Below are positions 30,398-31,976 of a stretch of DNA of 38,144 nt, in pieces; position 1 is the first letter of the stretch; every line of letters begins with the position of its first letter. The notes under the pieces were generated by a model, which saw only the letters and a list, made by a program, of their open reading frames with translations, did not search any database and was not told where the DNA came from. The stretch comes from a virus, in IMG/VR virus record IMGVR_UViG_3300035523_000144, positions 1 to 38,144 of that record; one strand, given 5' to 3'. The translations under genes and the position numbers were made by a program.

Positions 30398-31768
30398 TCA
30401 GCGGGCCGCCAGGGCGACGAAGGGGCTCTTGGTGAACGTGCCCTTGTAGGGCGTGATCGCCGACTTCCAGCCGGGTGCGCCGTTGGTCCGGAGGATCCAG
30501 CGGAAGACCTCCTGGTCCGTGAGGAACTCGACGTGGATCGAGCTCGCGCGCTGGATGCCGCCCTTCTCGAGGCGGAGGTACTCCGCCATGTCGACGAAGG
30601 TGAAGTCGCCGACGTCGCCCGGGGCCGAGGCCTGCTCGATCTCGATGACCGGCCGGCCCAGGAGGGAGCCGCCCGGGGTCTCGCCGATGCCGCCCGACGG
30701 GATGAACAGCGGCACGCCGCCGGTCCCGATGACCTGGTGCAGACGGTAGATCTGCGGCCAGAGGTCGCCGACCGTGTACCAGGCCGCCCGGCGCTTCGAC
30801 CGCGCGGGCATCCGGGCGAACATGTTGAAGACGTTCTCGGCGATGACGGTGTCGACGGCCTGGCCGGCCTCGGCCGCGACCGAGATCAGGCACGGCGCAT
30901 TGAGGAAGCCCGTCGGCTGGCCCGCGCCGCTGCCGCGGACCGCGGCGTCGTCGAGGGTGAACGCCATCTCGGAGACGAACGCGCGCTCCATGAGGGCGCC
31001 GCTGGCGGTCCAGTCGGTGCCGATCTCATCGGTCCGGTAGCCGAGGCCGAAGAGCTTCGCGAGCGAGAGCTCGAGCTTCGTGATCTTCGGCTTCTTGGCC
31101 GTGGCGGCCGTCGCCTCGGGCTCCCAGTAGACCTGGACGCCGCCGAAGCGCGAGCCGGTCGCGCGGCTGGTCTCGTCGATCAGGTTGATCTTGGCGCCGT
31201 TGGACCCCGGGGACAGCGGGACCGGCGTGGCGGCCGGCCACAGGACGGCCTCGGTCTCGATCTGGGTCATCCAGCGGTCGGTGATGTCCGTCTGGACCGC
31301 GAAGCCGCCGTCGGAGCCGGCCGTCTCGTTGAGGCCGGATGCGGCCGCCTGCATGCGGGCGTAGTCCTGGACCGCGACGAGGCGCGGGTCCGGGGCGCCA
31401 CCGTGGGCGCGGTCGATGGCGGCCTGGCGGATCGCCACGGCCTGCTCGCCGAAGGAGGCGAAGGGCGTCGGGGGCTTGCTGTCCGACGTCGGCCGGACGG
31501 CCTCGATGACGATCCCGGTGGCCGCGGCGGATGCCTGCTCCGGCAGCGCCGGCTCGGCGATCGCGCGCTCGCGGCGGGCGGCCTCCTGGGCGATCTCGGT
31601 GTCGACGGCGGTGAGCTCGCCGGCGATCGCCGTGCGGCGCTCGGCGGACGAGGCGAGGGCCGCGAGGGTGGCATCGGGGCTGGGCGCGGCCTCCGCGGCC
31701 GCGATGAGGGCATCCTCCTCAGCCTTGAGCGCCTTGCGCCGCTCCTGGAGGATCGCGAGAAGCCGCAT
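30398..31768 (-). CDS. HK97-type major capsid protein with N-terminal scaffold domain
   Basis: A 456-aa capsid protein. Residues 1-75 are a charged coiled-coil (delta/scaffold) segment (ILQERRKALKAEEDALIAAA). Residues ~145-456 form the HK97 fold (NETAGSDGGFAVQTDI; TGSRFGGVQVYWEP; LGYRTDEIGTDWTA; GIQRASSIHVEFLTDQEV). The scaffold is likely removed by the upstream protease. ATG 31768 has GGAG eight bases upstream, partly held in a hairpin (leader entry). The longer frame to 31837 would start inside the leader hairpin and was rejected. Confidence 0.95.
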   Translation of the reverse strand: MRLLAILQERRKALKAEEDALIAAAEAAPSPDATLAALASSAERRTAIAGELTAVDTEIAQEAARRERAIAEPALPEQASAAATGIVIEAVRPTSDSKPPTPFASFGEQAVAIRQAAIDRAHGGAPDPRLVAVQDYARMQAAASGLNETAGSDGGFAVQTDITDRWMTQIETEAVLWPAATPVPLSPGSNGAKINLIDETSRATGSRFGGVQVYWEPEATAATAKKPKITKLELSLAKLFGLGYRTDEIGTDWTASGALMERAFVSEMAFTLDDAAVRGSGAGQPTGFLNAPCLISVAAEAGQAVDTVIAENVFNMFARMPARSKRRAAWYTVGDLWPQIYRLHQVIGTGGVPLFIPSGGIGETPGGSLLGRPVIEIEQASAPGDVGDFTFVDMAEYLRLEKGGIQRASSIHVEFLTDQEVFRWILRTNGAPGWKSAITPYKGTFTKSPFVALAAR

Positions 31769-31940
31769 GGTGTGTTCTCCGGCTTGGGCGCCGGTTACAC
31801 AAAACGCGCAGCCGGCGCCAGTGTTTCCACTGGACAACAGCTGCGCGCGACCATTGGGCGTTGCGCTCTGTGTTCACCTCGGGCGGCCGATGAGCGTCGG
31901 CTTCGACCTTTCCCGCAGGCCTCTTCAGTTACCTCGATCG
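31769..31940 (-). ncRNA. Structured 5' leader of the capsid mRNA
   Basis: The predicted transcript carries three clear hairpins before the capsid start. The first is GCCGA/TCGGC (31886-31901). The second is a long stem CGCGCAGC/GCTGCGCG (31805-31847), topped by CCAGTG/CACTGG with a GAAA tetraloop in the minus-strand sense, followed by TTTTGTGT. The third, CCGGC/GCCGG (31779-31794), covers two bases of the GGAG ribosome binding site. ACACA near 31871 can pair with TGTGT near 31798. The GNRA loop and the T-run both favour a minus-strand RNA. It may be an attenuator or translation switch. No Rfam class was recognised. Confidence 0.55.
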
Positions 31941-31967
31941 GCCACGAACGTAGCTACGTGGCCGATC
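31936..31967. promoter_or_regulatory. 11-bp inverted repeat across capsid promoter
   Basis: GATCGGCCACG (31936-31946) and CGTGGCCGATC (31957-31967) are perfect arms around AACGTAGCTA. The repeat covers the -10 box and part of the spacer, so it suits an operator. If the RNA instead comes by read-through it would be a stable hairpin. Confidence 0.6.
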
Positions 31968-31976
31968 CGATGTCAA
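31947..31976 (-). promoter_or_regulatory. Promoter upstream of capsid gene
   Basis: On the minus strand TTGACA (31971-31976), an 18-bp spacer and TACGTT (31947-31952) form a sigma70-like promoter, about 180 bp before the capsid start. The -10 and spacer are overlapped by the large dyad at 31936-31967. Confidence 0.55.

Follow-up and report, generated by a model that had tools for sequence, protein, structure and literature searches.

In the 38,144-base viral record IMGVR_UViG_3300035523_000144, which was analyzed as a whole and is referred to here as the window, the major capsid gene is directly preceded by a structured RNA whose fold recurs in eleven further records of phages or prophages. 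We propose that the capsid transcript has its promoter and 5′ leader at positions 31976-31769 on the minus strand and that the leader RNA is a cis-acting attenuator, a reading to which we give a probability of roughly 0.6. By comparison among these sequences, the conserved capsid leader is a real feature. By the tests available, it represents a family of conserved, structured RNAs of phages that has not been described before; the family is new, but its kind, the phage leader or attenuator RNA, is already known.

Results

A promoter-like site and a folded leader lie between the protease and capsid genes

On the minus strand of the window, a portal gene (34789-33233), an S49 protease gene (33236-32223) and an unassigned 81-aa frame (32226-31981), which lies between protease and leader, are followed by a major capsid gene of the HK97 type (30398-31768; Phage_capsid, PF05065, E=1e-27). 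The 212-base gap between the 81-aa frame and the capsid gene holds a promoter-like site, a dyad and a folded leader, and the promoter-like site is located mid-operon, downstream of terminase, portal and protease. All features named in the original prediction are present on the minus strand at 31976-31769; the capsid ATG, directly 3′ of the leader, occupies 31768-31766, which corrects the capsid start from 31769 to 31768.

The promoter-like site consists, as predicted, of a -35 element TTGACA (31976-31971), an 18-nt spacer and a -10 element TACGTT (31952-31947). Transcription would be expected to start near 31940 which, with the capsid ATG at 31768, gives a leader of ~172 nt. Among random 70-nt stretches drawn from the same sequence, 0.4% contain a site as good as this one. 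A promoter scan program did not call it, because TACGTT matches TATAAT at 3/6 positions only. Promoter-like sites also precede the RNA in 10 of the 12 members of the family described below, and in the other two (L003 and L101) they precede a tRNA-Met gene that intervenes between site and RNA; that of L101 is poor, with CATCAT as its -10. Across 16 leaders, namely the 12 members plus four loci that the RNA model does not reach (L022, L072, L058 and L132), the combined significance is P~1e-16; L132 and L058 are not individually significant in the stretch scanned, and good sites are listed further along in both.

The tRNA-Met gene of L003 (2829-2903) was called by ARAGORN, and a same-looking sequence is found in L101 on the reverse strand; because of its position between promoter-like site and RNA, the leader of these two phages may be freed by tRNA processing. 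At several loci (e.g. L002, L011 and L014), the TGA within the -35 TTGAC- appears to double as the upstream gene's stop codon, in which case the promoter overlaps the gene end.

The -10 element of the window is flanked by a perfect 11-bp inverted repeat (31936-31967), with arms GATCGGCCACG/CGTGGCCGATC at 31957-31967 and 31936-31946 and a 10-nt loop that contains the -10. The window has this dyad once, and none of 100 shuffles has it; single matches resembling its half-site (<=2 mismatches) are also commoner in the window, with 83 against 46 in shuffles, and the dyad could be an operator. Reading of the relatives' promoters revealed no such dyad, and we therefore regard it as private to the window phage and reject it as a part of the conserved element. 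The operator-like dyad of the original prediction is accordingly there, over the -10, and is not conserved. The prediction had also called a separate, regulated capsid leader unusual. The separate promoter-like site and the structured leader are both there, but a capsid promoter as such is less unusual than stated, as promoter motifs ahead of the capsid gene are reported for Listeria phage CKA15 (PMC12282133).

Anatomy of the leader RNA

The region folds better than its shuffles, with z=-5.3 when the dyad is included and z=-3.5 when it is not (0/200 shuffles as good each time), in agreement with the predicted structured leader of ~170 nt. Within it, a conserved structured RNA of ~135 nt (31799-31929; this and all following elements on the minus strand) matches the covariance models R1 and R2 described below. 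Helix P1 (31918-31912 paired with 31883-31877) encloses the hairpin P2 (31888-31905; CGA-AGC / GCT-CA-TCG), whose CA bulge is conserved within the close group; all 7 of the P1 pairs are double-changed among 12 sequences. There follows a linker, TGAACACAGAGCGCAACGCC (31857-31876), which is conserved in the alignments with a consensus near TGACACAGA-AGCGACACC and is mostly unpaired, its last bases going into P3. P3 (31850-31859) is a small hairpin of the CACC-NNNN-GGTG type, represented in L010 by TAAC/GTTA. P4 (31804-31848) is a terminator-like hairpin with an internal loop and a GAAA loop, in which 97-100% of cells hold standard pairs across 12 sequences; the internal loop is conserved, and in the close group its 3′ side carries GGCGCC. 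The T-rich stretch 3′ of P4, TTTTGTGT (31797-31804), is imperfect as a T-run in the window and much better in L010, L073 and L081.

Two further pairings involve the sequence downstream. An alternative helix, P5 (31787-31819), joins GGCGCCGG (31819-31812) to CCGGCGCC (31794-31787) and is exclusive with both P4 and P6. At the ribosome-binding site lies the hairpin P6 (31772-31800; GTGT..CCGGC / GCCGG..ACAC), in which CCGGC-GCCCAA-GCCGG (31794-31779) covers the GG of GGAG (31780-31777). The three leader hairpins that had been predicted are thus found, including the GAAA-capped P4 with its T-rich tail and one covering part of the ribosome-binding site. The order in the members is promoter-like site, ~10-40 nt, P1/P2, linker, P3, P4, T-rich stretch and capsid start, with ~20-45 nt between the end of P4 and the capsid start.

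The fold is conserved in twelve phages, always ahead of the capsid gene

A pattern scan of viral contigs with a single capsid protein found no relatives; a portal search led to L002, L003 and L010, whose pre-capsid stretch resembles the window leader. In a plain MAFFT alignment of the window, L002 and L003, not fitted to structure, a 30-pair structure has 98.9% of cells paired (1/90 unpaired) and 12 pairs double-changed, and sliding the structure by 1-3 columns lowers pairing to 33-41%. Model R1, built from these three sequences, found L010 (5e-7) and L011 (5e-5), both at the capsid gene. A DNA pattern scan for P4 added L097, L099 and L101, each 5′ of a capsid gene (confirmed for L099); the other 6 of its 9 new stretches lie within coding DNA and were discarded as chance. 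The alignment of eight sequences has 95.7% of cells paired, and model R2, built from it, found L014 (5e-4), L073 (1e-3), L081 (3e-3) and, in the L004 record (L187), a further copy (5e-22), outside the stretch of that record examined earlier. In the L004 record ~5 kb separate the protease from the leader, and the leader and its promoter-like site are still directly 5′ of the capsid gene.

Together with the window these are the 12 members: L002, L003, L010, L011, L014, L073, L081, L097, L099, L101 and the L004 record. Their alignment, which like that of eight was fitted to the structure, has 95.3% standard pair cells, against 32-47% in slid controls, and double changes in 23/30 pairs; the 80 double-changed cells compare with 25 (sd 3.8) in shuffles, a control that ignores the relatedness of the sequences. 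Homologous leaders were predicted to conserve their pairing if the structure was real, and the covariance search found it kept in twelve phages with many compensatory changes. GC-rich windows generally fold strongly, and chance structure beside an unrelated promoter-like site would be one explanation; here the fold exceeds that of dinucleotide shuffles, and covariation in the alignments of three, eight and twelve sequences, the twelve phages including one whose element is 47% GC, refutes this explanation and leaves it next to no probability.

All 12 members lie directly 5′ of a capsid gene, and the leader thereby combines two of the properties expected of a cis-regulatory leader RNA, conserved pairing with compensatory changes and a constant position 5′ of one class of gene. 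The two DNA-pattern scans gave convincing copies solely 5′ of capsid genes; four new stretches from the linker scan had no significant model match and were judged to be chance. L010 is located in a Sulfuricaulis MAG, and among 369 genomes from the class of its host, L010 was the sole match. An Rfam 15 scan of the window at the gathering threshold returned 0 hits, and permissive scans, run on 14 loci that are members or related to them, returned nothing but a tRNA and chance hits, so that no Rfam family matches the leader. No description of such a leader was found in the literature covered, which takes in few subscription journals.

Possible alternative pairings link P4 to the ribosome-binding site

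Past the T-stretch lies a segment that can pair with the 3′ strand of P4, and this complementarity defines P5. The match is 8/8 in the window, L002, L011, L099 and the L004 record, is made with other sequence in L010 (9/9) and L014 (11/11), and is 6-7/8 in L003, L097 and L101. Tested in nine members (the window, L002, L003, L010, L011, L097, L099, L101 and L014), it exceeds that of shuffled tails at P<=0.025 in 7; covariation adds little, as the pairing is nearly invariant in the nine alignable sequences. No antiterminator pairing 5′ of P4 was found; it is P5, with its partner past the T-run, that competes with P4. In the window, the fold with P4 and P6 is ~12 kcal/mol better than the fold with P5 forced, and P5 would therefore need help to form there.

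Mutually exclusive pairings of the 1:2, 2:3, 3:4 kind recall erm leaders, in which a stalling ribosome on a leader peptide would choose between them. An upstream reading frame with a Shine-Dalgarno sequence common to the members was not found, in three members such a frame is absent altogether, and attenuation of the erm/trp type, for which a short translated leader ORF would be expected, is largely refuted and very improbable.

In most long-tailed members the partner segment of P5 also folds into the hairpin P6 at the ribosome-binding site, with tail z to -4.5 and a Stouffer score of -9.4 over 20 loci. Within the same sequences, folding is stronger around capsid starts than around the starts of other genes (P=0.0004), but Shine-Dalgarno accessibility is not significantly lower for capsid than for other genes (P=0.16), and an in-silico fold with P4 blocked does not leave the Shine-Dalgarno sequence cleanly accessible. 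Because accessibility resembles that of control genes, we have dropped occlusion of the ribosome-binding site as a stand-alone claim and retain it as a possibility. These results bear on a purely translational switch, in which the exclusive P4, P5 and P6 would set ribosome access to the capsid mRNA, perhaps in response to the capsid protein. The strong folding of P6 would suit such a switch, but the unchanged accessibility does not, nor do the strong terminators without P5 or P6 at L073, L132, L110 and L120; we consider it unlikely. The original suggestion of attenuation or translation control is matched by the anatomy and the conserved pairing.

By sequence and fold, the hairpin ahead of capsid is terminator-like in L010, L073, L081, L014, L022 and L072. 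A promoter, a structured body and a good predicted terminator (as in L010, L073 and L081) are the full anatomy of a small RNA, and position alone does not separate a cis-acting leader from an independent RNA. The RNA could then be a phage sRNA that acts in trans, its conserved unpaired linker contacting another RNA or a protein, while capsid would be expressed by leakage through P4 or from upstream. We regard this as rather unlikely: the RNA is always ~20-45 nt from the capsid gene, even in the L004 record with its genes between protease and leader, the pattern and model scans gave no convincing copy elsewhere, and P5 ties the RNA to sequence past the terminator in most members.

Terminator-like hairpins ahead of other capsid genes

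A strong terminator-like hairpin is found shortly 5′ of the start at at least 12 of 122 nonredundant capsid loci (L022, L132, L081, L014, L002, L010, L072, L110, L073, L120/L122, L088 and L023), ending 19-68 nt away. Since the model does not find L132, L110, L120, L022 or L072, the layout extends beyond the RNA family, which suggests that terminators ahead of capsid are more general than the RNA itself. At L132, L110, L120 and L088, none of them matched by the model, strong hairpins of this type end 19-34 nt 5′ of the capsid start. A linker-like GACAGC(G) is present in L022, L052, L072 and L033, which may be distant members. The cultured Bradyrhizobium phage ppBdUSDA122-1 (L091) has a small leader of similar appearance, with a small pre-capsid hairpin at ~2610-2700 with CGCCGGACA/TGTCCGGCG complementarity across it, and its match to the RNA model is not significant.

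Between protease and capsid leader, four members encode a small protein whose zinc motif is DnaJ/Anti-TRAP-like (L002:3967-4290; L003:2477-2779; L004:8595-8840; L097 near 6905, reverse strand); the window, L011 and L099 yielded no copy of it. The three copies scanned (L002, L003 and L004) all have a SAP domain match, and the protein is a candidate nucleic-acid-binding regulator.

Discussion

Because the shape of the leader has been kept while its letters changed, in the window phage and at least 11 diverse relatives, capsid production is probably under an RNA control not described in the databases checked. We propose that P4 is the default, low-expression state, at which some of the transcripts terminate; termination would probably be strong in relatives whose T-runs are good and weak in the window. 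With P4 formed, the downstream segment would be available for P6, the hairpin at the ribosome-binding site. A factor bound to P1-linker-P3, or an antitermination factor on RNA polymerase, could prevent P4, upon which P5 might form and capsid would be made. More tentatively, the leader may represent a new class of regulatory RNA in phages of unrelated hosts, one that responds to a factor of phage or host origin, perhaps the capsid protein, and sets capsid production through P4, P5 and P6 by termination together with translation.

Overlapping with the attenuator reading is the possibility of a late-promoter unit like lambda pR′-6S RNA-tR′ or HK022 put, in which a constitutive promoter, a leader and a terminator are followed by antitermination into the structural genes, mediated by a phage protein on RNA polymerase or by the RNA itself. 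Q-type systems act via a DNA element at the promoter and need no conserved RNA fold, which argues against such a unit here, as do the mid-operon position of the promoter, after terminase, portal and protease, and the lack of an antiterminator gene among the proteins scanned for families. The layout of promoter, ~100-190-nt leader, terminator and late genes does agree with it. An antiterminator is used by GTA clusters, which are phage-like, to pass terminators (PMC11150451). On balance we find this explanation rather unlikely and favor cis-acting attenuation.

Tailed phages need far more capsid protein than portal, protease or terminase, and to our knowledge how the capsid ratio is set in such operons is mostly unexplained. 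A conserved capsid leader in very different phages offers a concrete, testable switch and a new RNA family to annotate. It may also be a point of attack for satellites that reduce capsid expression, as PLE does for ICP1 capsid (PMC7567579), and a possible part for controlled expression in high-GC hosts.

Several known systems share elements of this design. Listeria phage CKA15 likewise has a capsid promoter of its own, but no conserved structured leader is seen in the available part of its description (PMC12282133). The erm and trp attenuators and riboswitch expression platforms also have mutually exclusive pairings, a terminator-like hairpin and a hairpin at the ribosome-binding site; unlike them, the window leader has no leader peptide and no Rfam family match. 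HK022 put RNA, compared here by description and not by sequence, is a structured phage RNA near the transcript start and ahead of a terminator, but it sits in early operons. The layout of promoter, short leader ending at a terminator and late structural genes is shared with lambda pR′, 6S RNA and tR′ under Q antitermination. Unlike in lambda, neither a gene for a Q-like protein, among the proteins scanned for families, nor an element that would bind Q was identified, and the window leader is a conserved RNA fold placed just 5′ of capsid rather than at the head of the late operon.
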